Shown one piece after another: positions 200-27,177 of a stretch of 40,606 bases of DNA (its first letter is position 1; each line of letters begins with the position of its first letter). The notes beneath the pieces were generated by a model. It made no database searches, had not been told where the DNA came from, and saw nothing but the letters and a program-made list of their open reading frames with translations. The stretch spans positions 1-40,606 of the forward strand of contig JASHRC010000165.1 of assembly GCA_030037525.1 (NCBI GenBank), written 5' to 3'. Both the position numbers and the translations under genes were made by a program. The stretch comes from Candidatus Acidiferrales bacterium. Lineage in GTDB: Bacteria; Acidobacteriota; Terriglobia; Acidiferrales; UBA7541.

Positions 200-535
200 C
201 TAGATGCGAGCTAGGGCGGTAGCCTCGTCCTCGACCAGATCCAGAACGGTATCCAGCCGAACCATTTTCAGAAGCATTTGCACGCGCCGGGGGGGCGAGA
301 AGAACGTGCATTTTCCGCCCGCGCGCTTAACAGTGGTGAACGCCCGGACCAGAGCGCCGATTCCTGAGCTGTCCAGGTCCGTCACGCCCGCTAGATTCAC
401 GGCAACGTGCGGAGACCCGGCCTCAATAAGCTTTTGAACCTGATCGCGAAACGCTTCTTGCGCCGGGCCAAGCTTGAGCGGGCCGTCCAGGTCGAGAATC
501 GTCGCCGGTCCGGCGGTGCGGATGCGGATATTCAA
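200..535 (-). CDS. STAS-domain anti-anti-sigma factor
   Basis: A 111-residue protein made of a single STAS domain (SpoIIAA/RsbV type). In this family a Ser in the DSxG motif is phosphorylated by an anti-sigma kinase and dephosphorylated by a PP2C phosphatase, which switches binding of the anti-sigma factor. The motif is seen as LDSSGIGAL, with Ser56/Ser57. The start is TTG at 535, preceded at close spacing by a GAGAGA sequence; no better start exists in frame. It is divergent from the GAF-HlyD export operon, so the two share a 173-bp control region. No anti-sigma kinase (HATPase_c) gene is visible nearby. A plausible phosphatase partner is the GAF-GAF-SpoIIE protein at 15214, which is an inference from family only. 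A second STAS gene lies at 35972. Confidence 0.85.
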   Translation of the reverse strand: MNIRIRTAGPATILDLDGPLKLGPAQEAFRDQVQKLIEAGSPHVAVNLAGVTDLDSSGIGALVRAFTTVKRAGGKCTFFSPPRRVQMLLKMVRLDTVLDLVEDEATALARI

Positions 536-633: not shown

Positions 634-708
634 TCGCCAGCCGCTCCTCGTCCCGTGCGGGATCTCATTTTGCGAGGCGAGGACGGTTCTTCCCTCCTCG
701 GGAGAGAC

Positions 709-3129
709 ATGCAAGCGTCCGCAGCGTTGTTCGAGCTGGCAAGCGTGTCCCTAGCCTGCCGCGATCAAGATACCCTTCTGAAGACCTTCGCCGCGCGCCT
801 GGGGTCGTCCCTGAGCGCCAAGGCCGTCCTCGTCTGGACTGGTAATGCGGAAAGTAGGCTGGTGTGCCGGGCACGCTGGAGTGCGGCCGGAGAGCGCCTT
901 AACGTAAAGGAGGCAGGCGCAAACGGTCTTCTAGCGGAAGTGCTCGGGACGGGTGAAACACGGCGCCTGGGCTCCAAACAGATCTCCTCGGCGCGTCTGG
1001 ATCACCTCGACGAGGCAGCCCGCGCGCGTGTGAAGTCCGCGATGTACGCGGTTCTGCCTGGCGCCCAGGACCCGCAGGGCGTCGTCGAAGTTTTGGGCGA
1101 ACCGGCCGAGGATTTTGCCGACGAGGACGCGCAGTTTCTCGAAGAGGCCAGCAGGCTTGCGGGCCACGCGCTCATCAATCTGGACGCGATTGAGGCCGAG
1201 CGCCGCTCGCAACTTGCCACGCTCGAGCGCTTAACAGCGCTCTATGATATCGGCCGCACCTTTACTTCGACGCTTGAACTCGCCCAACTCCTGCCGGTGG
1301 TCGCCGGGAAAATACAAGACATGCTGGGAGCCGGGGCAACGAACGTTTGGCTGATGGCTGCCGATGGGAAGGAACTGTATCTTGCCGAGCGGGCGGGCGA
1401 AGATCCCACGGTCGAGCCAGGCGCGCGCGTTTCCTCAACCGAAGGTCTGCTCGCCGAAATCGCCCAACAGGCAAGCCCAAAGCTCGTTACCGAGCCTGCC
1501 GACGAACCAGTCCTCTCGGAGCGACGAGAGGCAGGCGGCGACTTCGAAATTCACTGCTGGATGGCCGCGCCTCTGCGGAAAGGCGATGAGGTGCTCGGTG
1601 TTTTGGAACTCGTCAACAAGGCGGATGGCAGTGCGTTTGACGAAGACGACCTTTTCTTGCTGGCAAGTGTCAGTGAGCAGGCCGCCGTCGCTTTACACAA
1701 TGCCAACCTGCTCGAGTCCGAGCGCAAGTTGCACACGCTCGACGCGCTGCTGAAAATTTCGCAAGAGATCACTTCCACGCTCGACTTGGATCACGTCCTT
1801 ACGACCGTGGTTCATCAGGCCGCCACGGTCGTGCCCTTCGACAAATGCGTGATCGGATTTTTCGACCGCGGTCAATTCGTGCTCGGCGCCGTTTCGGGCG
1901 AATCCGAGGTTCCCAAAACTCGTGAGATGGACGATTTGAGAGATCGCCTGCAATGGGTGGCCCGTCGCCAGGACGCTGTTTCGGCCAATCTATACGACGA
2001 CGGCTGGCATCTTGACCCGGAAGAGGCCAAGGCCCAGATCGTGCCGTTCCTGGAGAAGAACGACTACGCCGGTTTCTATGCGCTGCCGTTGCATGACGAC
2101 CAGGGCGCGCTCGGAGCGCTGGCGCTTTTAAGCAGCGCTGCGGACTTTCTCACCCAAAGCCACAAGGAAACGCTTGCGATTCTTGCCAGCCAGACAACCG
2201 TAGCCGTCCGCAACGCGCAGCTCTATCAGCAGGTGCCTCTTGCCAACATCTTGCAGCCGCTTGCCCAGCGAAAACAAAAACTTCTCGCAGCTTTGCCGAA
2301 GGGACGCTGGCGCCCGTATATGGAGCGGGCCGGCATGGTAGTCCTGGCGCTCGTTTTGATTCCCTGGCCGATGCGCGTGGGTGCGGACGCCACCGTCGTG
2401 CCCGCCGAGCGCAGGATCGTCAGCACGATCGAGGGCGGTGTCGTCCGCCGCGTTTTCGTTCGCGAAGGCGACGCCGTCCAGGCCGGCCAATTCCTCGCGC
2501 AGCTCGACGACAGCGATGATCGGGTCAAGCTTGCGGAGGCCCAGGCCGCCCTGGCTCAAGCCAGGCATGATTTGGCCGAGGCAGAATTTCGCAACGACGG
2601 CGCAGCTGCGGGCCAGGCCAAGATCCGGGCCGATCTGCATGAGGCCGAGGTCGAACTGGAACAGGAACGCGTACGAGAGGCCCAACTACGCGCTCCGATC
2701 GCCGGTGTCGTGGTGACGCCGAAGATTGAGGAGCGCGTCGGAACCATGTTGAAGCCGGGCGAAGCCTTCGGCGAAATCGTCGCGGCGGACCGCATGGCGG
2801 CCGAAATCAGCGTGCCGGAAGGGGACCTTGGGCTCATTCGGCCGGGACGAACCGCCGCGCTGAAATTCAACGCGTTCCCCACGGTCACTTTCGCCGGAGC
2901 CGTCGAGCGGATCGGTGCCGAGACAAGATCTGAGGCCGGCGAGCAGTATTTTCTAGTGCGGGCGGTGTTCGACGATCCAGGCCACCTGGCTCGCGACGGA
3001 ATGGTCGGCCGCGCGCGGATTCGCGCGTATGGCGGATGGTTCGGCAGCGAATGGTACCCGGTTGGCTACGCTCTCACTCGCGATCCGTCCCGGTGGCTCT
3101 GGCGAAAAGCTTGGGCGATGTGGCCGTGA
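709..3129 (+). CDS. hybrid protein: three GAF domains, one membrane helix, HlyD-type periplasmic adaptor
   Basis: About 806 residues. Three successive GAF-like sensory modules occupy roughly residues 5-160, 170-335 and 340-507; each ends in the usual helix with a xxxAVxxxNAxLxE pattern. A single membrane helix (about 541-556, VVLALVLIPWPM) follows. Then comes an HlyD/biotinyl-lipoyl half-motif (GGVVRRVFVREGDAVQAGQ), a coiled-coil arm (AQAALAQARHDLAEAE), the returning lipoyl half (LRAPIAGVV) and a beta-barrel region. Topology predicts the GAF domains in the cytoplasm and the adaptor in the periplasm, so a cytosolic signal could gate export. That is inference. The frame is open from a GTG at 655, but that start has no Shine-Dalgarno sequence. 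The ATG at 709 has GGGAGAG just upstream and leaves GAF1 intact, so I chose it. First gene of a three-gene operon; the next gene starts 20 bp downstream. Confidence 0.85.
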   Translation: MQASAALFELASVSLACRDQDTLLKTFAARLGSSLSAKAVLVWTGNAESRLVCRARWSAAGERLNVKEAGANGLLAEVLGTGETRRLGSKQISSARLDHLDEAARARVKSAMYAVLPGAQDPQGVVEVLGEPAEDFADEDAQFLEEASRLAGHALINLDAIEAERRSQLATLERLTALYDIGRTFTSTLELAQLLPVVAGKIQDMLGAGATNVWLMAADGKELYLAERAGEDPTVEPGARVSSTEGLLAEIAQQASPKLVTEPADEPVLSERREAGGDFEIHCWMAAPLRKGDEVLGVLELVNKADGSAFDEDDLFLLASVSEQAAVALHNANLLESERKLHTLDALLKISQEITSTLDLDHVLTTVVHQAATVVPFDKCVIGFFDRGQFVLGAVSGESEVPKTREMDDLRDRLQWVARRQDAVSANLYDDGWHLDPEEAKAQIVPFLEKNDYAGFYALPLHDDQGALGALALLSSAADFLTQSHKETLAILASQTTVAVRNAQLYQQVPLANILQPLAQRKQKLLAALPKGRWRPYMERAGMVVLALVLIPWPMRVGADATVVPAERRIVSTIEGGVVRRVFVREGDAVQAGQFLAQLDDSDDRVKLAEAQAALAQARHDLAEAEFRNDGAAAGQAKIRADLHEAEVELEQERVREAQLRAPIAGVVVTPKIEERVGTMLKPGEAFGEIVAADRMAAEISVPEGDLGLIRPGRTAALKFNAFPTVTFAGAVERIGAETRSEAGEQYFLVRAVFDDPGHLARDGMVGRARIRAYGGWFGSEWYPVGYALTRDPSRWLWRKAWAMWP

Positions 3130-3148
3130 TCCAGAAAGGACCAAACCG

Positions 3149-4078
3149 ATGAGAAGGGGTGCGCTTCTGTCGACTAGTGCGATTGCGCTTCTAACGGTGG
3201 CTTGCGGCGATGCGCCGATTCCGCCTTCTTCTCGTGCAGCGGCCGCCCCTCTGGGCAGCCGATCTCCCGCGGCACAGCCGGCGGCAGCGCCTGCCGAACT
3301 GGCGACTGTCGGCACCAATGAGGTCCTGAGCGTCCTCTCCGTAGAGCATCAAGTCGATGTGGCCAGCGAGCGGGATGGCATGGTCGTCTCGATCTCGAAG
3401 GATGAGGGAAGTGTGGTCAACAAGGGAGAGGTGCTCGCCCAGCTCGATGACCGCACGCTACAGGTTGAAAGGATCAAGGCCAACGATGATCTGTTGGTGG
3501 CGCAGAACAACGTCAAGTACAAGGAAGCGGAACTGAAAGCCAAAAGAGCGGCGCTCGACCGCCAGCAGCAGCTCCGCAAGCTCGGACTTTCGAGCGAGGC
3601 CGATCTGGAAGCCGCCGACTTTGAGGCCAAGGCCGCCGAATTCGACCTGCACGGCTGGGAAGCGATGGTAGAAAGCAGTCAGGCTGAAATTCACCGACTC
3701 GATATAGAAATAGATCAGACGCACCTGCGCGCGCCGTTCTCCGGCGCCGTGGTGAGCCGTTACATCCGCGAAGGCCAGGAGGTTGCCAAGGGCGATAAAT
3801 GTTTTCGGGTGAGCCAACTGTGGCCGCTCGAGGTCGAGTTCCAGGTTCCAGAGTCTGCCGAACCCCACCCCGTCGATGGTGCGGGTGTGAGGGTCTCGCT
3901 CGTGGGAGATTCCACCCGCACGGTGCGTGCACGGGTCGTGAAAGTCAGTCCGACGGTTGACCCCGCGAGCGACAGCTACAACGTGACTGCTGAGCTAACC
4001 GGCAAGGTCTCCGATCTTCGCCCGGGAATGGCGGTCCGCGTGGCCTGGCCTGCCACCGGCCACGCAACGACCCCGTAG
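3149..4078 (+). CDS. HlyD/RND-type periplasmic adaptor lipoprotein
   Basis: A 309-residue membrane fusion protein. The N-terminus (MRRGALLSTSAIALLTVACGD) is a lipoprotein signal with Cys19 as the likely lipidated residue. A low-complexity Ala/Pro linker follows, then the first lipoyl half (DGMVVSISKDEGSVVNKGE), a coiled-coil hairpin rich in Lys, Glu and Ala, the second lipoyl half (LRAPFSGAVVSRYIREGQEV), and a beta-barrel ending in LRPGMAVRV. This family bridges an inner-membrane transporter and an outer-membrane channel. The frame extends upstream to 3029 inside the previous gene, but the ATG at 3149 has AAAGGA at good spacing and gives the signal peptide, so it is preferred. It sits between the GAF-HlyD hybrid and the M50-HlyD fusion (10-bp gap). 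No pump or TolC-like gene is present in the window. Confidence 0.9.
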   Translation: MRRGALLSTSAIALLTVACGDAPIPPSSRAAAAPLGSRSPAAQPAAAPAELATVGTNEVLSVLSVEHQVDVASERDGMVVSISKDEGSVVNKGEVLAQLDDRTLQVERIKANDDLLVAQNNVKYKEAELKAKRAALDRQQQLRKLGLSSEADLEAADFEAKAAEFDLHGWEAMVESSQAEIHRLDIEIDQTHLRAPFSGAVVSRYIREGQEVAKGDKCFRVSQLWPLEVEFQVPESAEPHPVDGAGVRVSLVGDSTRTVRARVVKVSPTVDPASDSYNVTAELTGKVSDLRPGMAVRVAWPATGHATTP

Positions 4079-4087
4079 CGGATCACC

Positions 4088-6232
4088 ATGCGCTTCGGCC
4101 CCACCAGTCTGAGAACCTCCCGCAATGTTGCCAAGGGATTGCGGCGCCCAAAATTCCGGTCGGACCTCCGCGTCAGCGAACAAACTCTTCGGGGCGAGAC
4201 AAGTTACGTAATCAAGGTTCCCGAAAAAAACAGCTACAGCCGCTACGGCCCGACCGAATACGAACTGCTGACCCTGTGCGACGGCACGCGGACAGCATCG
4301 GAGGTCGCGGCGGAGTGGAATCGAACGCACCCCGATGAGCCGTTGGGCGAAGCGCAGGTCATGGAATTTCTCGATGATGCCGAAGCCGGGCTTTGGGAGC
4401 AATCGCTGGGAGAACGGAACCTGGCAGTTCTCGAAAGGATCCGGGACGAGCGGCGAAGCCGCGTCGACCAATCGAGCGTACTCTATATCAGTTTCAAAGC
4501 CTGGGACCCCGATCGAACGCTCACCAAACTAGATCGGTATCTCGGCTGGATGTTCACTCGCGGGTTCGTCGTCTTTTCTATTCTGCTGTTCATCGCATCG
4601 GCTTATCTAGTGGCCGGGGACTGGGCTCGGGTCAAGAGCGACACGGCCGCTCTCTATTCCTTTCAGAACAAGACTGCCTACGACATTTGGGTTTTCTGGT
4701 TTCTGATGTTGGGGTTAGCCGCGATCCATGAATTCGGGCATGGCCTGACCTGCAAGCATTTTGGCGGGGAAGTTCACCAGATGGGTTTCCTGCTCATCTA
4801 TTTCACACCGGCTTTTTTTACCGACACCACAGACAGTGTCCTCTGCGACCGCTCGAGTCGTCGGCAATGGGTGCTGTTCGCCGGAATCTGGATTGAGTTG
4901 GTCGTCTGCGGAATCTGCGTCTTGCTCTGGCGTTTTACCGCGCCGGGTTCGTTCGTGAACGATCTTGCTTACAAGGCTATGTTGTTTAGTGGAATCCAGG
5001 CAGCTCTTCTGAATCTCAATCCGCTCATCAAGGCGGACGGATACTACGCGCTCTCTGAGTTTCTCCACGTGGACAACCTGCGGGAGGATGCTTTCGCGTT
5101 TCTTCGGGCCTGTACGCGAAGGTACCTGTTTCGCGAAGATGTGGAGCTGCCCGCCGCTACGAAACGGCTGCGCCGCATCTTTACGGTGTTCGGCCTCACG
5201 GCAATTGTCTACAGCGTCTCGCTGGTCATTCTCGCTCTGTTATTCGTGAAAAATGTCTTCGTCAGCAAATTTGGAACGTGGGGCTACGTGTTGACGGCAG
5301 GCGTGGTTTATTTCTTTCTCCGTAAGGGTTTCAAGAAGGCGCTTCCGGAAGTTCGCGCCTGGTGGCGCGAGAAGAAAGAGGAATGTATGGCCTGGAAATT
5401 GTCGCGGGCGCAGAGTTTGGGAGGCTTGGGCATCGCATTTTTGCTGATGATTCCTCCGGTCCCGTCGCGAGTGGCGTCGGATTTTGTGCTGGAACCAGGC
5501 AGAGATGCGCACGTGCGGGTCGAAGTGCCGGGGGTGGTAGATCGGGTTTTTGTCAAACAGGGCGAGACCGTTAGCGAAGGACAAGTGTTGGCGACTCTCA
5601 AAAACCCTGGGGTTGAGGCGAACGCTCAATTGCTGGGCGAGCAGCTGGCAATGGCCAATAGCAACCTCCGCACGGCCCAAGCGCGGGCCGAGGAAGAAAA
5701 GATCGCCGCTGCTTTCGCCGAACAACAGCGACTCGAACAAGAATGGGAGGTTGCGCGGAATAAACTCGCTTCGCTCCAGATCCGGGCTCCATGGGCCGGG
5801 GCAATTTCAACTTCCGTGGTTGAACAAAAGATCGGCGAATACCTCTCGGCTGGGGATGAATTCTGTCAGATCGTGGATCGTCGCACGATGAAGGCGCGCA
5901 TCTTAGTTCGCGATTGGGAACTCGAGGACGTCGCTGCCGGAGCCCCAGCGAGGCTTAAAGTGATTCGGTTCCCCTATCGTACCTACGCGGGACGGGTCCG
6001 ACAGATTCTTCCCGCGGCTGCCTCGGACCGGCCCGTCGCCGAGCCGCAAAAGCTCTCGCGCTTGGGACAGGACCTGACGAACTATTTCGCTGTGGTGATG
6101 GACTTCCCAAACCCCGATGGGTCGCTCACGGAAGGCATGACGGGGACCGCAAAAATATCCGGCGGAGAGCTACCGCTGGGCTGGCAGATGGCTCGCGGGG
6201 CGTGGCGCTGGGTTCATTCCCAGTTGTGGTAA
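4088..6232 (+). CDS. fusion protein: PqqD/RRE-like domain, M50 site-2-type metalloprotease, HlyD adaptor
   Basis: 714 residues. Residues about 20-105 resemble a PqqD-type winged-helix fold (RPKFRSDLRVS, then SRYGPTEYELLTLCDGTRT, then helical). In other proteins this fold serves as the RiPP recognition element that binds leader peptides. A membrane region follows with the M50 zinc motif HEFGH at 214-218 and the second metal motif LNPLIKADGYY around 309-320. Further membrane helices lie near 155-175, 200-213, 262-282, 365-390 and 398-410. Residues about 445-690 are HlyD-like: a helix, a lipoyl half (GVVDRVFVKQGETVSEGQVL), a coiled coil (about 515-562), the returning lipoyl half (IRAPWAGAIS) and a beta-barrel. 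The start ATG at 4088 lies 10 bp after the lipoprotein gene, with weak GGAT upstream. The architecture suggests peptide recognition, intramembrane cleavage and hand-over for export in one chain. The function is inferred; the likely substrate is the small peptide encoded opposite at 6447. Confidence 0.88.
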   Translation: MRFGPTSLRTSRNVAKGLRRPKFRSDLRVSEQTLRGETSYVIKVPEKNSYSRYGPTEYELLTLCDGTRTASEVAAEWNRTHPDEPLGEAQVMEFLDDAEAGLWEQSLGERNLAVLERIRDERRSRVDQSSVLYISFKAWDPDRTLTKLDRYLGWMFTRGFVVFSILLFIASAYLVAGDWARVKSDTAALYSFQNKTAYDIWVFWFLMLGLAAIHEFGHGLTCKHFGGEVHQMGFLLIYFTPAFFTDTTDSVLCDRSSRRQWVLFAGIWIELVVCGICVLLWRFTAPGSFVNDLAYKAMLFSGIQAALLNLNPLIKADGYYALSEFLHVDNLREDAFAFLRACTRRYLFREDVELPAATKRLRRIFTVFGLTAIVYSVSLVILALLFVKNVFVSKFGTWGYVLTAGVVYFFLRKGFKKALPEVRAWWREKKEECMAWKLSRAQSLGGLGIAFLLMIPPVPSRVASDFVLEPGRDAHVRVEVPGVVDRVFVKQGETVSEGQVLATLKNPGVEANAQLLGEQLAMANSNLRTAQARAEEEKIAAAFAEQQRLEQEWEVARNKLASLQIRAPWAGAISTSVVEQKIGEYLSAGDEFCQIVDRRTMKARILVRDWELEDVAAGAPARLKVIRFPYRTYAGRVRQILPAAASDRPVAEPQKLSRLGQDLTNYFAVVMDFPNPDGSLTEGMTGTAKISGGELPLGWQMARGAWRWVHSQLW

Positions 6233-6278
6233 ACGACCCCGCCTGAGTAGCGTAAGAAGGATTTGATCGCTAACAGCT

Positions 6279-6309
6279 AGGTGGCCGCCGGGTTGCGCGG
6301 CGGCCACCT
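6279..6309. terminator. strong hairpin between convergent genes
   Basis: A 12-bp near-perfect stem (AGGTGGCCGCCG pairing with CGGCGGCCACCT) closes a 7-nt loop. It lies between the end of the M50-HlyD gene (6232) and the end of the minus-strand peptide gene (6343). No T-run follows on either strand, so it may block transcription through both convergent genes or protect 3' ends rather than be a classical terminator. Confidence 0.45.
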
Positions 6310-6342
6310 GATCATCGTAGGCCTTGGATCTAGCTCACCGCC

Positions 6343-6447
6343 CTACTTGGGAGGTGGCGGCCCCGGGGTGTACAAGGGCACCTTCTTCTCGAGCTTCTTT
6401 GCTCCTAGCGTCTTTCCCTTCTTTGCCGGCTTGCCCGTGGGTTTCAT
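6343..6447 (-). CDS. small Lys/Pro-rich peptide, candidate substrate of the adjacent export system
   Basis: 34 codons from ATG at 6447 to TAG at 6343-6345. A very strong Shine-Dalgarno sequence (GGAGAGGGAGAGG, then 5 nt) precedes the ATG. The peptide begins MKPTGKPAKK and has a central GKTLGAKKLEKKVPL with Leu at 14, 19 and 25 among Lys pairs. It ends in a Pro-rich tail (PGPPPPK). There is no Cys, no signal peptide and no obvious double-Gly leader. It has 11 Lys and 8 Pro in 34 residues. It lies convergent to the RRE-M50-HlyD operon and downstream of a sigma-54 activator gene, behind a sigma-54 promoter. I infer a ribosomally made exported or modified peptide. No modifying enzyme (radical SAM, YcaO, lanthionine synthetase) is seen in the window, so it could be a plain secreted peptide or an unrelated small basic protein. 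Confidence 0.65.
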   Translation of the reverse strand: MKPTGKPAKKGKTLGAKKLEKKVPLYTPGPPPPK

Positions 6448-6505
6448 AATTTCCTCTCCCTCTCCGCGAATTTAGTCTCGCCAACGGCAGACCGAAACAG
6501 ACGAG

Positions 6506-6521
6506 AGCAATCAGGGGGCCA
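6506..6521 (-). promoter_or_regulatory. putative sigma-54 (-24/-12) promoter of the small-peptide gene
   Basis: Read on the minus strand the element is TGGCCCCCTGATTGCT. It has GG and GC separated by exactly 10 bases and keeps TGGC at -24 and TTGCT at -12, close to the sigma-54 consensus TGGCAC-N5-TTGCW. Transcription would start near 6495, about 48 nt before the ATG at 6447. The neighbouring gene upstream encodes a sigma-54-dependent activator with an intact GAFTGA loop, which makes the assignment more credible. Confidence 0.6.
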
Positions 6522-6680
6522 AAGGCTGCCTTGCCGGCCGACGAACCTAGCTGCTTGAAAACGAGGGGCTTGCACCTTCCGAGAATAGGCGATCGGGAGT
6601 GTCGCGGCGCACGCCGTGATGACTATTTCAACGTCTGTTGACTTATTCAACGGAACCTGTCCTCTCGCCTAAGGTCCGAG

Positions 6681-8072
6681 CTAGTCTAGGCCATGTTTTC
6701 GACAGAGATAATTCATGCGGTTGCGGTCCACTCGCAGCAGGCGCGCCGCTTCCGCCTTGCCGTCTTGGGCACGCTCTAAGGCTTTCTCGAGCCAGCGCCG
6801 CTCGAAGGCCTGGACTTCCTTGTCGAGGTCGATCCCGCCGACCGGCAGGTGGAAACGATCCTTCGAGTTCCCCCCTCCGGCCTGCACCACCTCCGGCGGC
6901 AAATCCCTCAGCGTAATGGTGTCGACGTCGGTCATCACCACGAGCCTCTGGATCGCGTTTTCCAGTTCGCGGACATTACCGGGCCAAGGGTACCGTTTCA
7001 TGGCGAGCATTGCCTCGGCGTCGATGTGTTTCACTGGCAGACCGTTGGCTGCGCAATAGACGCCAATGAAATAATCGGACAGCAGCGGAATGTCTTCGAC
7101 GCGCTCTCGCAGCGCGGGAACAAAAATCGGGACCACGTGAATCCGGTAGTACAGATCTTCGCGGAAACGACCCTGACGCGTCATTTCCTCCAAGTTTTCG
7201 TTCGTTGCGCTAATCAGGCGGAAATCGACGCGAATAGATTTTTTGCCGCCGAGCCGCGTGAGTGCACGTTCCTCGAGCACGCGAAGCAGCTTGCTCTGCA
7301 GGGCCGGTGTGAGTGTGGCGATCTCGTCCAGGAAAAGCGTGCCCTGGTGGGCCATTTCGATGCGCCCTTCTTTAGTGGCTGCCGCCCCGGTGAATGCGCC
7401 CTTTTCGTAGCCGAAAAGCTCCGATTCGATCAGAGTTTCCGGCAGCGCCGCACAGTTGACGCTCACAAACGCGCGACTGCGCCGTGGACTCTGCTCGTGA
7501 ATCGCACGTGCGACCAGCTCTTTTCCCACCCCGCTTTCGCCTCGGATGACGACGTTGGTCGTGGCCCGAGCGATTCGCTTGATCGACTCAAACAGATGCC
7601 GCATCGAGTCGGTCGCACCAATAAAATCGCCCAGCGCGTTTTTGCGACTGATTTCATGACGGAGGATGCGGTTCTCCCGCTGGATGCGCAGCTTTTCTAC
7701 GGCGCGCTCGAGCAGATGTCGGAGCACGTCGGTATCAATGGGCTTGATGAAGTAGTCGTACGAACCCGCGTCGATTATTTTGAGCGCCGTGGACTTTCGC
7801 TCGTCCGAGCTCATTACTAGGACCAGTGTGTCAATCTCGCTTCCGTCGAGCCGGTCCAGGAGCTCAGTGCATTCATGCATTCCTCCAGACGCAATCGGCA
7901 GACCGAGCAGAAGAACATCCAGTTCGCATTCCTGAAGCAGGTTGTAAGCCGCCTCGTAATCCCTTCCTTCCAGCACTTCAAAGTAAGACCGCAGGGACGA
8001 GGCGATTTTCGACCGCAAAGCATCGTCATCGTCGACGATGGCGACCCTGGGTCTGGGTGTTCCTGGCGCGAT
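6681..8072 (-). CDS. sigma-54-dependent transcriptional activator with a degenerate receiver domain
   Basis: NtrC-type activator of about 463 residues. Positions count from the preferred start. Receiver about 8-125 with the acidic pocket VAIVDDDD (13-17) and the conserved Lys in FIKPID. The phospho-acceptor position reads LDVLLLGLPI, so Asp is replaced by Gly57. AAA+ domain: Walker A GESGVGKE (178-185), sigma-54 contact loop GAFTGA (225-230), Walker B GTLFLDE (244-250). A Fis-type helix-turn-helix lies at the end (EAARLLRVDRNRMNYL). Start choice is difficult. The only upstream ATG (8198) and TTG (8141) lie in or before a near-perfect promoter and give an N-terminus unlike a receiver. The best ribosome site, GGGGAG, sits 6 nt before a non-standard ATC at 8072. 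I use 8072, with 8198 as the longest alternative. Probable target: the sigma-54 promoter at 6506-6521. Confidence 0.85.
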   Translation of the reverse strand: MAPGTPRPRVAIVDDDDALRSKIASSLRSYFEVLEGRDYEAAYNLLQECELDVLLLGLPIASGGMHECTELLDRLDGSEIDTLVLVMSSDERKSTALKIIDAGSYDYFIKPIDTDVLRHLLERAVEKLRIQRENRILRHEISRKNALGDFIGATDSMRHLFESIKRIARATTNVVIRGESGVGKELVARAIHEQSPRRSRAFVSVNCAALPETLIESELFGYEKGAFTGAAATKEGRIEMAHQGTLFLDEIATLTPALQSKLLRVLEERALTRLGGKKSIRVDFRLISATNENLEEMTRQGRFREDLYYRIHVVPIFVPALRERVEDIPLLSDYFIGVYCAANGLPVKHIDAEAMLAMKRYPWPGNVRELENAIQRLVVMTDVDTITLRDLPPEVVQAGGGNSKDRFHLPVGGIDLDKEVQAFERRWLEKALERAQDGKAEAARLLRVDRNRMNYLCRKHGLD

Positions 8073-8112
8073 CGAGCTCTCCCCACGCGGACCCTGATGC
8101 CGCGTTGTCGCG

Positions 8113-8141
8113 ATTCTAGGAGCGAGGCAGGCCAGTGTCAA
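8113..8141 (-). promoter_or_regulatory. sigma-70 promoter of the sigma-54 activator gene
   Basis: On the minus strand TTGACA (8141-8136), a 17-bp spacer and TAGAAT (8118-8113) match the consensus at 11 of 12 positions. Transcription would start near 8106, downstream of every ATG, GTG or TTG that is in frame before the receiver domain. This is the main argument for a start at 8072. Confidence 0.65.
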
Positions 8142-8147
8142 CGCACG

Positions 8148-8429
8148 ATGCCTGGGATCATTTTGGCGTTGGTCAGTGGTCGACCAAACATTGCCCATCT
8201 GCGCGGCACCGTTGCTGGCGCGGCCATCCTTACGCTTTTCGGCTCCGCGTGGTGCATCATAGGGCTTACTCTCTGGGGCGCGCGTCCCAGCTGGTCCATT
8301 CCCGCGGCATCCACGGCCACCGTGGCGCTGCTTGCTGTGTCTGTCCAGCGGCTTATGGCTTTGAGAAAGATTCCCGGCGTCGATGATTCGGCCGCAGCAA
8401 CCAAAGAAAAACGAACTGCTTCACTTTGA
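8148..8429 (+). CDS. small two-helix membrane protein of unknown function
   Basis: 93 residues from ATG at 8148. Two hydrophobic segments are visible (about 21-43, GTVAGAAILTLFGSAWCIIGL; about 52-67, AASTATVALLAVSVQ), then a charged C-terminal tail with an Ala/Lys-rich end. I do not recognise the family. No good Shine-Dalgarno sequence precedes the ATG, and a TTG at about 8169 is an alternative. It is divergent from the sigma-54 activator and would overlap it only if that gene began at 8198. Hydrophobic pattern and clean length argue for a real gene; lack of a ribosome site argues against. Confidence 0.5.
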   Translation: MPGIILALVSGRPNIAHLRGTVAGAAILTLFGSAWCIIGLTLWGARPSWSIPAASTATVALLAVSVQRLMALRKIPGVDDSAAATKEKRTASL

Positions 8430-15213: not shown

Positions 15214-16965
15214 ATGGACTCGATCGACGTCAATTCGGTGCAGGAAATCCCTACCGAGACGCTGGCCGTCCTGTCGGAGATCGGCCAGGAAATCAACGCC
15301 TCGCTGAATCTCGATCAGGTTCTTGCCAGCGCGGCTCAGCAGGTGCGGCGGCTCATCGACTACGAGATTTTCGCGGTACTGCTGCCCGAGGCCAGCACCG
15401 GCAACCTGTATGTCCGCTTTGCCATCGGCCATCGCACCGAAGTCGTTGAGAACTGGCGGATTCCGGTTGGCGACGGCATCATCGGCACGGCCGCCGCAAC
15501 CGGGCAGGCCGTTCGTGTTGGTGACGTTACGAAGGACCGGCGCTATCTGCCCGCCGTCGATCAAGTGCGTTCGGAAATCGCCGTGCCGCTGATCGTACGG
15601 GGTCGCGTGATCGGCGTGATGGACATCGAAAGCCGACAGCTCGATTACTTCACGCCCGCCCAGCAGCAGATTCTCACACTCGTCGCCAGCCGCATCAGTA
15701 CCGCTGTCGAAAATGCGCGCCTCTACGAGAGCGCCCAGAAACAGGCCGAAACCCTGCTGCTGCTCAACGAGATCGGCCGCGAAGCCAGCTCGAGTCTGGA
15801 GGTCGAGGAAGTGCTGCGCCGCGCGGTGGAACTCACCAAACGCCTGATCGACTACCAGATCTTCAGCATTCTCCTCTACGACGAAAGCGCTGGCGTCTTT
15901 CGCCACCGGGTCACCGTGAAGTTCGGCCAGCGCGTGCAGGAAAAGTCGACCGTCCCGCTACATGAGGGAATCGTCGGCGCCGCTGCGAAGCTTCGACGCC
16001 CGATCGCAGTTCCCGACGTGTCTCTTGATCCGCGCTACCGCCTGCTGAACCCGGAAACGCGTTCCGAACTGGCCGTCCCCATGATCTATAAGAATCGCGT
16101 TGTCGGGGTGATGGATCTGGAGAGCCCGCAGCTCAATTATTTCACCGCTGACCACGTTCAGATTCTTTCGATTCTTGCCGCACATCTTGCCGTCTCGATT
16201 GAAAACGCCCGACTCTACGAACGAGTGGCGCGCGACGAAAACCGAATGGAGCGCGACCTGCATGCTGCGCGCCGCATTCAAGGCGCGCTGTTGCCGCGCG
16301 TGCCGGGCCCTGAATTCGGACTGGATATCGCCGCGCGGGTTGTATCCTCGCGCGAGTTGAGCGGAGACCTGTACGACCTTCTGCGCTACGGCCCGCACGA
16401 CCTCGGCATTGCGCTCGGCGACGTAAGCGGCAAGGGAAGCGCCGCGGCGCTCTATGGTGCGGTCGCCGTCGGAACACTGCGCAGCCTCGGCTCCCAAAAG
16501 CCTCGGCCCGCCCACATGCTCCACGCCCTCAATGGTTTTTTGGGCGAGCGCCTCATCGAAGGGCGCTTCATGACTTTGTGCTTTGCCACCTGGCAGCAGC
16601 GCCAGCGACGTCTGCGCGTTGCGAACGCGGGGCAAGAACAGCCGCTGCTCCTTCACGGAGGCCACTGCGACAAGATTCCCCTGACCGGATTTCCTTTGGG
16701 AATCTTCGAGGATGTCACCTACGACGAGAGAAGTTTTATCCTCGACCCGAACGACATCGTGGTGTTCTATTCAGATGGCATCGGCGACGCGCAGAGCCTC
16801 CATGGCGAATTCTTCGGTTCCAAGCGTGTCGCACAGATGGTGACTGAAAACCAGCACGTTTCCGCTGACGGCATCGCCGACAGAATCCTGGAATTGGTCG
16901 ACTCCTTTTCCAGTGGCCAGCATCCCTCCGACGACCGGACCCTCATCGTCCTAAAAGTGAAGTAG
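15214..16965 (+). CDS. GAF-GAF-SpoIIE (PP2C-type) serine phosphatase
   Basis: 583 residues: GAF 1 at about 25-170, GAF 2 at about 190-335, a short linker helix, then a SpoIIE/RsbU-type PP2C domain at 360-583. The two GAF domains are close copies of each other (SELAVP with GRVIGVMDIES or NRVVGVMDLES). Metal-binding acidic residues are visible: Asp385 in SGDLYD, Asp403 in GDVSGKG, Asp521 in FYSDGIGDA, and Asp574 in DDRTLIV. Such enzymes dephosphorylate STAS anti-anti-sigma factors in partner-switching cascades. Two STAS genes occur in this window (200 and 35972), but neither is adjacent. ATG at 15214 has no clear Shine-Dalgarno sequence. It ends 8 bp from the convergent hydrolase gene. Confidence 0.93.
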   Translation: MDSIDVNSVQEIPTETLAVLSEIGQEINASLNLDQVLASAAQQVRRLIDYEIFAVLLPEASTGNLYVRFAIGHRTEVVENWRIPVGDGIIGTAAATGQAVRVGDVTKDRRYLPAVDQVRSEIAVPLIVRGRVIGVMDIESRQLDYFTPAQQQILTLVASRISTAVENARLYESAQKQAETLLLLNEIGREASSSLEVEEVLRRAVELTKRLIDYQIFSILLYDESAGVFRHRVTVKFGQRVQEKSTVPLHEGIVGAAAKLRRPIAVPDVSLDPRYRLLNPETRSELAVPMIYKNRVVGVMDLESPQLNYFTADHVQILSILAAHLAVSIENARLYERVARDENRMERDLHAARRIQGALLPRVPGPEFGLDIAARVVSSRELSGDLYDLLRYGPHDLGIALGDVSGKGSAAALYGAVAVGTLRSLGSQKPRPAHMLHALNGFLGERLIEGRFMTLCFATWQQRQRRLRVANAGQEQPLLLHGGHCDKIPLTGFPLGIFEDVTYDERSFILDPNDIVVFYSDGIGDAQSLHGEFFGSKRVAQMVTENQHVSADGIADRILELVDSFSSGQHPSDDRTLIVLKVK

Positions 16966-16973
16966 GCGGGCGC

Positions 16974-18023
16974 TCAGTTCCGAGCCCCGCTGCTTTGGCG
17001 CGCCGGGTGCAGAAACTCTTCCACGGAGTGAAGGAACAAGTTCGGCTGATCAACAAAGGTCATATGGCCGCTTTTCGGCAGAATCACCATCTGCGAACTC
17101 GCAATTTTCTCATGCATTTCCTGGGAAAGAGAGGGATCGCACTCGTCATGATCGCCAACGACGATCAACGTAGGCACATGAATCCCCGCCAGGCGGTCCA
17201 CATACTCAACCGACTTCAAGTTCCCGTCGATCACGAACTCCCCGTCCGAACCCCACATTTCCCGGTAAAGATCCCAGGACATGACTCCGTTCTCGACCGG
17301 ATCGTAGTTGGGATCAGAGTGATTCTGATAAAGGTAGGGGAAATATCCCTCGCCCCATGCAGCAATCATGTACTGGTCGGGATAGCGGTTTTTGCGGTAG
17401 TCGGGCCCCTCGCCGAAGAGCCCTTTCTTCTCCATCGCGTCAATTCGATCCCGCAAATCGGGAGACATCTTCTCCTTCATCCGACGAAACACGTCATTCA
17501 TCTGCTGGGTGCTCGGAAACGTGCTCGCCAGAATCAAGTGAGTCAGATTCCTCTGATACTTGAACGCGTAGGCTTGGGCCAGAACCCCTCCATAGGAATG
17601 CCCCAGTAGGCTGATCCGTCCGAGCGCGAGGCCCTGGCGCACGGCCTCGAGGTCTTCCACCATATTCTCGACCGTGTAGCCTTTGGGATCTTCCAGCTGT
17701 TCGGATTTTCCCGATCCCCGCTCGTCGATAAAAATCAGCCGATTGTGCCGAGCGAGCGGCAGTAGATAGGGCAGGAAGTACTCGTGGGAGGCGCCCGGCC
17801 CTCCGTGAACGATCACGAGCGGCGCGCCGCGACCGACAATCACGTAGTAGATCAGCACGCCATGGGCATCTACGAAGCCTTCTTGCACGGGGTAATTGGC
17901 GGGCGCCGGGCTATGGACAGCCGCTTCGGGAGCTGCCACCGACTGCGCAGCCACGTTTACGCCTGGCGCAAAGCCATAGACATAGAGGAAAGCAGCGAAT
18001 CCCCATCGGACGGTGAACTTCAC
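16974..18023 (-). CDS. exported alpha/beta hydrolase, proline iminopeptidase-like (S33)
   Basis: 349 residues. An N-terminal signal peptide (MKFTVRWGFAAFLYVYGFAPGVNVAAQ) suggests a periplasmic location. S33 hallmarks: oxyanion-hole HGGPG at 73-77, DERGSGKS at 100-107, nucleophile elbow GHSYGG with Ser143, acid Asp293 in GDHDECD, and His320 in SGHMTF. Likely activity is cleavage of N-terminal Pro or a related small-molecule hydrolysis; most S33 substrates cannot be predicted from sequence. The start is GTG at 18023 with GGGAGG 8 nt upstream. It follows nadK by 33 bp and may be the last gene of that minus-strand run. Confidence 0.88.
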   Translation of the reverse strand: MKFTVRWGFAAFLYVYGFAPGVNVAAQSVAAPEAAVHSPAPANYPVQEGFVDAHGVLIYYVIVGRGAPLVIVHGGPGASHEYFLPYLLPLARHNRLIFIDERGSGKSEQLEDPKGYTVENMVEDLEAVRQGLALGRISLLGHSYGGVLAQAYAFKYQRNLTHLILASTFPSTQQMNDVFRRMKEKMSPDLRDRIDAMEKKGLFGEGPDYRKNRYPDQYMIAAWGEGYFPYLYQNHSDPNYDPVENGVMSWDLYREMWGSDGEFVIDGNLKSVEYVDRLAGIHVPTLIVVGDHDECDPSLSQEMHEKIASSQMVILPKSGHMTFVDQPNLFLHSVEEFLHPARQSSGARN

Positions 18024-26001: not shown

Positions 26002-26958
26002 TTACTGCTCCAGGAGGTTGATCTCGCCAACGCCACCGTGGACTGTCATGTCGATGTTCGTGGGCGTCTTTCCGTACGCGTCGTTTTGGTAGGCGTCCCC
26101 CTCCCGCCGCAATCCATCCGCGCTCACTGAGCCGATTCCACCGGAGGCCTCGACACGCACGCCCACGTCTTTTGGTAGCCGGATGATCGCGGATCCGACG
26201 CCGCCTTCGATTGTGGCAGCGAGGTTCGCCTTTCTGGGCCCCGTTAAATCGAGGTCGAGTTTTCCCGCTCCCATGTTGATCTTCAGGTGTTCCACTTCCA
26301 GGCCGCCAAGGCGCAGGTAGCCTTCCCCTGCTCCGATGTTCACGTTCATATCCAGCGCCTCATCGCCGCCGAGTTTCAAATCCCAGTTGTTGTCGTCCGG
26401 TCCCCAATGTACATGCTCGTTTCTGCTGGATACTGTGAGATGACCACTTCCACCGGAAACCGAGTAGTCCACGCTTGGCCTTTCCGAGCTGCGGTCGTAG
26501 CGGAAGTCTGCATCCAGGAGTTTGCCAGAGCCGCCAGACACATCTAACGTCCCTGCAGGGAATTCCAAATCGAACGTCACCAGTTTTGCACCCTGTTGGT
26601 CGACCGACTGAGTTTCGTGCATCTCGTTCCCCGGCCGCCAGCCACGCCCATCGTGCCAGCGCCCCCCATGCCAGAGTGCCAGCACGAAGAGCAGAAGAAG
26701 AATCACCCACGCCAGCCCCGTCCCTGTAAACCAGGGCGCCGTGGCCCGCTCGGGATGCTGATGCGCGTAGTAGCTGTCCCAGATCTTCCCCAAGCCGATC
26801 GCAATCAGAATCAGCGGCCAATAACGGAACAGCCACGGCCAGGGATCGAACTCCGGATATAAGTTCATGAGCAGAAAAAACACACCGAGGCAAATCAGAA
26901 TCACGGGCCCGACAAATGATCTCGGTCGTCGCGGCGGACCTACCGGTTGCGATGCCAT
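26002..26958 (-). CDS. membrane protein with LiaF/toastrack-like C-terminal domain
   Basis: 318 residues. Three membrane helices (about 14-33, 44-60 and 80-97; FVGPVILICLGVFFLLMNLYP, FRYWPLILIAIGLGKIW) resemble the DUF5668/LiaI-LiaF N-terminus. Residues about 130-318 are repetitive beta-strands (GAGEGYLRLGGLEVEHLKI, INMGAGKLDLDL, IEGGVGSAIIRLP, GGIGSVSADG, VHGGVGEINLLEQ). They look like the DUF2154/DUF4097 adhesin-type or toastrack fold. LiaF proteins sense cell-envelope stress through a LiaRS pair, but no such pair is near. The frame is open to 26991, but the ATG at 26958 has GGAGGAAG 3 nt upstream. Confidence 0.85.
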   Translation of the reverse strand: MASQPVGPPRRPRSFVGPVILICLGVFFLLMNLYPEFDPWPWLFRYWPLILIAIGLGKIWDSYYAHQHPERATAPWFTGTGLAWVILLLLFVLALWHGGRWHDGRGWRPGNEMHETQSVDQQGAKLVTFDLEFPAGTLDVSGGSGKLLDADFRYDRSSERPSVDYSVSGGSGHLTVSSRNEHVHWGPDDNNWDLKLGGDEALDMNVNIGAGEGYLRLGGLEVEHLKINMGAGKLDLDLTGPRKANLAATIEGGVGSAIIRLPKDVGVRVEASGGIGSVSADGLRREGDAYQNDAYGKTPTNIDMTVHGGVGEINLLEQ

Positions 26959-27177
26959 TTGCTTCCTCCCATTGCAAGATACGCTTGGCACTCCCTGAAT
27001 GTTTCACCGTCGCCCGCGCAATGCGTCAAAGCCCTTTTTTGTAGCGTCCCTTGCGTGCCAGCGGCCCAGAATCGCTGAGACGCGCTGAGGAGGCCAGCGT
27101 CGTGCGTGAGAAAGGCTGTGCATACCAAGCCCATGGTGGTAAATCCGTAGTAGTCTCTTGTAGTAGCCTTCTGCCGA

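Follow-up and report, generated by a model that had tools for sequence, protein, structure and literature searches.

A candidate leader-guided peptide processing and export system centered on an RRE-M50-HlyD fusion in Acidobacteriota

Introduction

A module in which Peptidase_M50-HlyD, HlyD, and GAF-HlyD proteins are encoded together was described by Kamneva, Poudel and Ward in 2015 (PMC4452313), who related it to type I secretion and to a secondary SecA_DEAD protein. In the portions of that paper drawn on here, no ATP-binding cassette (ABC) transporter was found, M50 is suggested as the pore, the broader role is called "completely unknown", and there is no mention of a substrate. Its main text contains neither the word PqqD nor the word Acidobacteria. 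Here we analyze a related locus in a 40,606-nucleotide stretch of DNA (contig C254, hereafter the window) from a Candidatus Acidiferrales genome of 4.2 Mb in 286 contigs, which is ~93% complete. The locus combines the trio with a small basic peptide gene and a sigma-54 regulator gene, and we assign a probability of roughly 0.7 to its being a leader-guided peptide processing and export system.

Two further systems are close to this locus. The M50 protease EpeP is thought to carry out both leader cleavage and export of epipeptides, according to the cited part of PMC10885120, and daptide pathways contain a recognition element (RRE) of the type known from ribosomally synthesized and post-translationally modified peptides (RiPPs), fused N-terminally to a site-2 protease (PMC10036551, in the passages used). 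The initial annotation of the window held that the combination of genes matched no standard RiPP or bacteriocin locus known to it. That view was right insofar as the role of the trio was unknown, but the trio itself had been described (PMC4452313) and RRE-M50 fusions are known from daptides.

Results and Discussion

Gene Order and the Peptide Gene

The genes lie in the order STAS (- strand), GAF-HlyD, HlyD, and RRE-M50-HlyD (all +), peptide gene (-), and sigma-54 response regulator (-), of which the core features are as follows.

655..3129, + strand: GAF-GAF-GAF-HlyD membrane-fusion protein; GTG start at 655, with ATG at 709 possible (Pfam GAF 4.7e-26, HlyD_D23 5.6e-18)
3149..4078, + strand: HlyD-type periplasmic adaptor (Pfam HlyD_D23 1.2e-19; NCBIfam RND_mfp 142 bits, cut-off 94.9)
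4088..6232, + strand: RRE-M50-HlyD fusion, 714 aa (Pfam and NCBIfam matches, alignment, AlphaFold2 model)
6343..6447, - strand: gene for a 34-aa basic Lys/Pro-rich peptide, candidate substrate (peptide family, codon variability)
6681..8198, - strand: sigma-54-dependent response regulator, receiver plus Sigma54_activat (Pfam Sigma54_activat 8.2e-71, Response_reg)

The peptide, MKPTGKPAKKGKTLGAKKLEKKVPLYTPGPPPPK, is encoded at 6447-6343 on the - strand behind GGAGAGGGAGAGGAAATT, and its Lys-rich N-terminal leader is KGKTLGAKKLEKKVPL; no paralogue was found elsewhere in its genome at E 10 or better. The parts named in the initial annotation are all there, among them the three adaptor genes, one of them fused to a PqqD-like fold and M50, and the 34-codon Lys/Pro-rich gene; the GAF domains of the first adaptor went unnamed in it. 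The nearest named matches to the locus are Acidobacteria metagenome-assembled genomes, part of which are labelled Candidatus Acidiferrales or Terriglobia.

A Peptide Gene Recurs at Homologous Loci

With a limit of E 1e-30, 52 of 151 genomes contain a homologue of the fusion, the window's own genome among them. The analysis covered 40 stretches around genome matches and 79 loci from named records, the latter taken from the best 80 matches of an alignment-based contig search. A single-sequence search of the genome contigs with the M50-HlyD protein gave no match where the alignment-based search did, and viral contigs gave no match. Terriglobia-type loci and their relatives repeat the order GAF-HlyD, HlyD, M50-HlyD, gap, regulator, and many of them have a STAS gene at one end.

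The initial annotation had staked its proposal on homologous loci keeping a comparable, intact small open reading frame (ORF). A comparable peptide gene is found in 56 of the 59 usable acidobacterial trio loci, and three lack one. This set began with 60 gaps, reduced to 55 by leaving out duplicates (L090, L091, L098, L101) and one gap that was too short (L063); L065 and L097 share an identical peptide, probably from one strain, and are both counted. Four gaps (L036, L048, L057, L058) end at the contig end rather than at a regulator. The peptide gene lies on the regulator's strand in 54 of the 55, the exception being L048, whose contig ends before the regulator. Four further usable loci comprise two with a peptide (L034, L088) and two without (L082, L143), a balance that leaves the odds of the export reading as they were. 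Thirteen of L074-L088 duplicate the DNA of counted loci, and L052, L061, L099, L111, and L122 end 2-246 bp behind M50-HlyD and thus fall outside the usable set. In L088, a K-rich 38-aa ORF at 17681 (- strand, -24/-12 score 9) adjoins a sigma-54 regulator gene; peptide and regulator have stayed together, with the M50-HlyD trio 7.5 kb away.

The peptides behind 54/55 and 56/59 were chosen by visual inspection of mechanically generated ORF lists, and an unbiased version is given by a mechanical filter that requires ATG, a Shine-Dalgarno sequence, 20-150 codons, at least 15% K+R, and a -24/-12 score of at least 9 lying 30-95 nt upstream. On the regulator's strand, 47 of 55 gaps pass (0.2 in shuffles); on the other strand, none does (0.17). 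When the promoter is ignored, an ORF that is K/R-rich and preceded by a Shine-Dalgarno sequence occurs in 51 of 55 gaps on the regulator's strand (shuffles 12.1) and in 4 on the other (7.3). The eight misses of the full filter are the cut locus L048, two GTG starts (L103, L138), two genes longer than 150 codons (L060, L062), and three promoters that score 8 (L051, L053, L108).

For the remaining neighbors, ORFs of at least 80 aa were compared all-against-all and families present in at least five loci were considered, a scope that holds for every statement on recurrence below; rarer neighbors were not all annotated. HlyD-type proteins recur most widely (104 loci), ahead of the regulator (60) and STAS (24); the smaller families are an outer-membrane-channel family in 10 non-acidobacterial loci, a kinase (8 loci), an ABC ATPase (7), and long LExRIAP proteins (5). 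In acidobacterial loci, only the HlyD-type, regulator, STAS, kinase, and ABC ATPase families recur. No modifying enzyme or immunity-like gene recurs in the cassette, and no ABC transporter is conserved as part of the acidobacterial cassette, in agreement with the initial annotation, which had seen neither an ABC exporter nor a modifying enzyme. An ABC ATPase gene lies upstream of STAS in L039, L040, L041, and L045 (Pfam was checked for L039), and L048 contains another member of this family.

Conserved Leaders and Variable Cores

The family comprises 74 peptides from 54 loci, 22-191 aa long, with a median net charge of +11.5; none contains Cys and two contain Trp. Close to the window, the conserved part is K-K-L-[EG]-x-x-x-P-L (one member ends TL) instead of the K-x-L-x4-L-x5-L pattern first proposed. 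Other Terriglobia-type loci, Edaphobacter and Granulicella included, share the leader MxIQKKSLISxLxxTKKA, and the alignment of this leader (A6, 19 rows) has a mean column identity of 70%. Mean entropy at the three codon positions is 0.34, 0.20, and 0.81 (codons 4-10, 20 leaders) and 0.57, 0.49, and 1.15 in 17 KKLxxxxPL stretches; third positions are the most variable, as expected if the leaders are translated. Beyond residue 20 the cores vary strongly. Among those with at least 15 residues past this point, 38 of 51 are internally repetitive (p<0.01), with units such as LQRGT, LSGGKG, VQSR, AVARP, LAKSTN, and SLKGLKNS; the core of the window peptide is too short for this test. Some loci encode two to four paralogous peptides.

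The small peptides scanned with Pfam and NCBIfam reached no model at its cut-off and gave only matches below it, one being Pentapeptide_4 (Pfam, 6.6e-6) for the gap peptide of L068. The period-5 repeats in the gap peptides of L054, L049, and L068 (ALQRT, LQRGT, LAESK) resemble pentapeptide repeats.

Short peptides with a conserved leader and a variable core are organized as RiPP precursors are. Together with the RRE and with the M50 proteases known from RiPP pathways, this could mean that the locus is truly of the RiPP or bacteriocin kind and that the genes for its modifying enzymes lie in other parts of the genome. We consider this improbable: neither a modifying enzyme nor an immunity-like gene recurs, the cores are simple repeats, and the complete lack of Cys, taken with the lack of a recurring modifying enzyme, fits an unmodified product. 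The system would work like a RiPP export step, but the lack of a recurring modifying enzyme in the cassette is our reason for not classing it as a RiPP system.

Leaders and Machine in Other Lineages

Proteins with an N-terminal LExRIAP motif adjoin relatives of the fusion in other lineages. Small ones are encoded in L073 (59 aa), L127 (two), L136 (five consecutive ones, Planctomycetota), and L121 (50 aa, Verrucomicrobia), and a large one of 771 aa in L115 (SAR324). Four Oligoflexia-type loci carry large KKLExRIAPG repeat proteins of 1012-1465 aa (L092, 11030-14707; L107, 7882-12275, cut by the locus end; L113, 3108-6143; L123, 5691-9350), and an L092 family that is Pfam OEP also occurs in L107 and L113. 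The LExRIAP protein of L128 (Magnetococcales) is cut by the contig end. Overall, an LExR-type protein is present in 9 of 38 distant loci, with four more among 16 that were re-inspected: L121 and, with loosely similar ORFs of 24-33 aa, L069, L071, and L072. The Pfam cut-offs reached by large LExRIAP proteins (ABATE in L115, pAdhesive_11 in L113, FKBP26_C in L123) have little functional meaning.

At E 1e-3 or better, a cut-off chosen after the list was inspected, the LExRIAP leader model (A4) matches 16 of 297 phylum genomes, of which 15 are among the 48 with M50-HlyD and 1 is among the 249 without the machine (p 2.4e-12, shared ancestry ignored); 14 of these genomes have leader and M50-HlyD on one contig. 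At a threshold of 0.1, M50-HlyD is present in 17 of 32 leader-match genomes versus 48 of 297 overall. Of 250 class genomes, 14 contain the MxIQKKSLIS leader. Every one of these belongs to the 53 that carry M50-HlyD, with the leader 187-425 bp away from it (p 8e-11, likewise ignoring ancestry), and 0 of the 197 genomes without the machine have the leader; 39 of the 53 give no match to it. Both models were built from peptides beside the machine, partly from the same genomes, and the firm part of the co-occurrence is the near absence of leaders in genomes without the machine.

These counts bear on two other readings. The peptides are very basic and of low complexity and might be cytoplasmic or nucleic-acid-binding proteins placed beside the trio by chance or co-regulation; we regard this as very improbable, as the machine is present in 14 of 14 and 15 of 16 leader-bearing genomes and nearly always adjacent. 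The tight adjacency, strong co-occurrence, and dedicated control would equally fit a peptide that regulates the machine, induced through sigma-54 and acting on the M50 protease or the adaptors as a small inhibitor or chaperone. However, hypervariable repeat cores, lengths of 22-191 aa, up to four paralogues per locus, and the 1012-1465 aa proteins of the Oligoflexia-type loci look like cargo, and a regulatory role for the peptide therefore seems quite unlikely.

Other LExRIAP proteins were seen in passing. LExRIAPGG leaders precede Gly- and His/Ser-rich cores with Cys in L073 (10231-10407) and L153 (1504-1731); the His-Xaa-Ser-rich core of L073 matches HxsA4 at E 1.7e-4, below cut-off. These peptides may connect the LExRIAP leader with Hxs, which we take to be a putative RiPP system. 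Near-identical 31-aa LEKRIAP peptide genes stand in tandem in L165 (four) and L166 (three), on contigs that also carry M50-HlyD. The LEPR-XLL domain of planctomycete proteins is a conceivable parallel to this leader. In the open-access literature searched, none of the titles, abstract openings, and passages covered links these peptides or LExRIAP to the machine.

The RRE-M50-HlyD Fusion

Four features of the fusion are of interest here.

4148..4381, + strand: RRE (PqqD-like peptide-binding fold), residues ~21-98 (domain model, PDB fold matches)
4727..4741, + strand: M50 HExxH zinc motif, residues 214-218 (invariant in 22/22 aligned homologues)
5018..5044, + strand: NPLxKxDGY motif with Asp317, residues 311-319 (N, P, L, K, D, G, and Y invariant, 22/22)
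5486..6172, + strand: HlyD/membrane-fusion part, residues ~467-695 (Pfam HlyD 1.9e-16; PDB profile and fold matches to MacA, MexA, and AcrA)

The C-terminal Trp is invariant in the same 22 homologues. The fusion has the marks of an M50 (site-2) protease, with HExxH and a later Asp in the alignment and with helices in the model; Asp317 is presumably the ligand, as in site-2 protease biology. Pfam M50 matches at 5.1e-5 (23.2 bits, under the cut-off of 27.2). The NCBIfam daptide metalloprotease model NF041824 matches residues 34-415 at 1.8e-57 (195 bits versus a cut-off of 300), and the YydH/LiaK model NF058609 gives 44.7 of 225 bits.

The AlphaFold2 model of the whole fusion has a mean predicted local distance difference test score (pLDDT) of 80.6 and a predicted template modeling score of 0.51. 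Modeled alone (pLDDT 86.7), the N-terminal domain shows three strands, then three helices, then a long helix. Its best Foldseek matches in the PDB are PqqD (5sxy, probability 1.00) and the lasso leader-binding protein TbiB1 (5v1v, 0.97), with weak E-values of 0.02-0.06 and none at 0.001. Among the 50 matches listed, 5wgg (a sactipeptide enzyme), 8vpo (TigE), and 6jx3 (lasso B1) also exceed a probability of 0.8, and we take all three to be RRE-carrying structures; E-values are weak overall (0.02 to 0.4). Sequence profiles match 5sxy at E 0.13 and 3g2b at E 0.41, and NCBIfam PqqD at 0.0013, under its cut-off. The model thus points to a PqqD fold, that of an RRE, which may bind the leader.

Control of the Peptide Gene

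Three elements surround the peptide gene.

6279..6309, - strand: 12-bp hairpin 3' of the peptide stop codon, probable terminator (stem search; without a T-run)
6506..6521, - strand: sigma-54 -24/-12 element TGGCCCCCTGATTGCT (10/12 consensus positions, 60 nt before the ATG)
6637..6651, no strand: palindrome GTTGACTTATTCAAC, candidate regulator site (motif count in gaps versus expected)

The promoter score of 10/12 and the strength of the Sigma54_activat match uphold the promoter and adjacent activator of the initial annotation, from which the palindrome and the hairpin were absent. Within 170 bp of 70 peptide starts (a table without L065, L103, and L138), a -24/-12 score of at least 9/12 is found at 59, versus 2.5 expected from order-1 Markov shuffles, which never rose above 6 of 70 in any of 200 rounds; a score of at least 10 is found at 45, versus 0.46 expected. 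In the gaps, 14 copies of the palindrome form TTGA-N5-TCAA were counted where 1.0 would be expected; they are spread over 12 gaps, nearly all of close relatives. This short form is also present at two other window sites, and the 10-base form has four genomic sites (control pattern 1). Perfect stems of at least 8 follow 43 of 71 peptide genes, compared with 0.8% in shuffles and 6 of 71 upstream control stretches; the window hairpin has a stem of 12, and a terminator scan of the window did not list it. Because of these promoter, palindrome, and hairpin statistics, the peptide gene looks like a complete, self-contained unit with its own control. The best NCBIfam match of the regulator is the PEP-CTERM-box regulator TIGR02915 (407.6 bits, short of the cut-off of 502.6), and the kinase gene that overlaps the regulator gene in L090 is closest to PrsK (151 of 300 bits).

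Proposed Mechanism and Possible Roles

In the mechanism that we propose, sigma-54 transcription of the monocistronic peptide gene is switched on by the response regulator, which would bind near 6640 in answer to a signal. The RRE of the fusion would bind the Lys-rich leader in the cytoplasm, the M50 domain would cut the peptide at the inner membrane, and the cationic product would pass out via the HlyD parts, together with the two remaining adaptors and an outer-membrane channel whose gene lies outside the locus. A small molecule may tune the machine through the GAF domains. As to what the product does, a surface- or matrix-acting cationic peptide is the guess we would put first, tentatively; an antibacterial peptide is a less likely guess, and a signal molecule an unlikely one.

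Several points weigh against a leader-guided export system. The machine is missing from 9 of 19 same-genus genomes, many of them incomplete, and L082 and L143 carry the trio without a convincing peptide. No LExR-type peptide was found in 25 of the 38 distant loci. Neither leader model detects the leader of the window's own genus (the window genome is negative for A4 and A6), and the kinship between KKLEKKVPL and LExRIAP is for this reason a resemblance by eye; L060 and L062, with KVEALEGRESP and repeated RKAPL, look intermediate between the two. No energy source is apparent: the cassette has no recurring ABC protein, and the assembled genome gives one SecA match. Deletion of EpeP did not fully abolish epipeptide production, according to the cited part of PMC10885120, and the analogy to EpeP is accordingly not tight. 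Binding, cleavage, and secretion of the peptide are steps that we infer, and conservation and co-occurrence are what suggest the peptide as the substrate.

A broader form of the export reading is possible, at odds somewhat short of even. RRE-M50-HlyD would then be the inner-membrane gate of a widespread, unrecognized export route that reads LExRIAP or a local leader and cuts and passes substrates ranging from peptides of 24 residues to repeat proteins of 1,400. Such a route would need no ABC pump and, in Acidobacteria, no second SecA.

Neighboring Genes

Divergent from the operon, and with its upstream DNA outside the window, lies one further gene of the cassette.

200..535, - strand: STAS-domain protein, anti-anti-sigma type, whose gene lies 200 bp into the window (Pfam STAS 9.7e-16)

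STAS homologues stand at either cassette end in the 24 compared loci that have them. A GAF-SpoIIE phosphatase is encoded at 15214-16965 (+ strand) and might pair with the STAS protein to form an anti-sigma partner switch. A LiaF-like protein with a toast_rack domain, of the cell-envelope response type, is encoded at 26005-26991 (- strand).

Comparison with Known Systems

HlyD-type adaptors are common to the window and to type I secretion and tripartite efflux (PMC8277102, in the part cited), whereas no ABC, RND (resistance-nodulation-division), or MFS (major facilitator superfamily) pump of these systems recurs in the window-type cassette; outer-membrane channels are represented in the window genome by 18 OEP matches on nine contigs. 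The epipeptide system differs in its radical SAM enzyme, which has no recurring counterpart. The daptide RRE-peptidase has RRE-M50 in common with the window fusion, as the NF041824 match reflects, although this match is below cut-off, the window fusion has an extra HlyD part, and neither the aminotransferase, the oxidative decarboxylase, nor the methyltransferase of daptides recurs in the cassette.

The module of Kamneva, Poudel and Ward shares the M50-HlyD, HlyD, and GAF-HlyD trio with the window. It has a secondary SecA_DEAD, whereas the window genome, in a 93% complete assembly, gives one SecA_DEAD match, and the window system further differs in its Acidobacteriota host and its sigma-54 regulator. 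A module on record since 2015 without a known role now has candidate substrates with recognizable leaders and a recognition domain, to which an inducible sigma-54-type promoter match is added in Acidobacteria. With these, what the module exports can be put to a direct test, also in Edaphobacter and Granulicella, two genera that have named strains. They also point to a set of ribosomal peptides outside Pfam and NCBIfam description. What is new relative to the described module is thus the candidate substrates, the RRE, the sigma-54 switch, and a version of the system whose genome has a single SecA.

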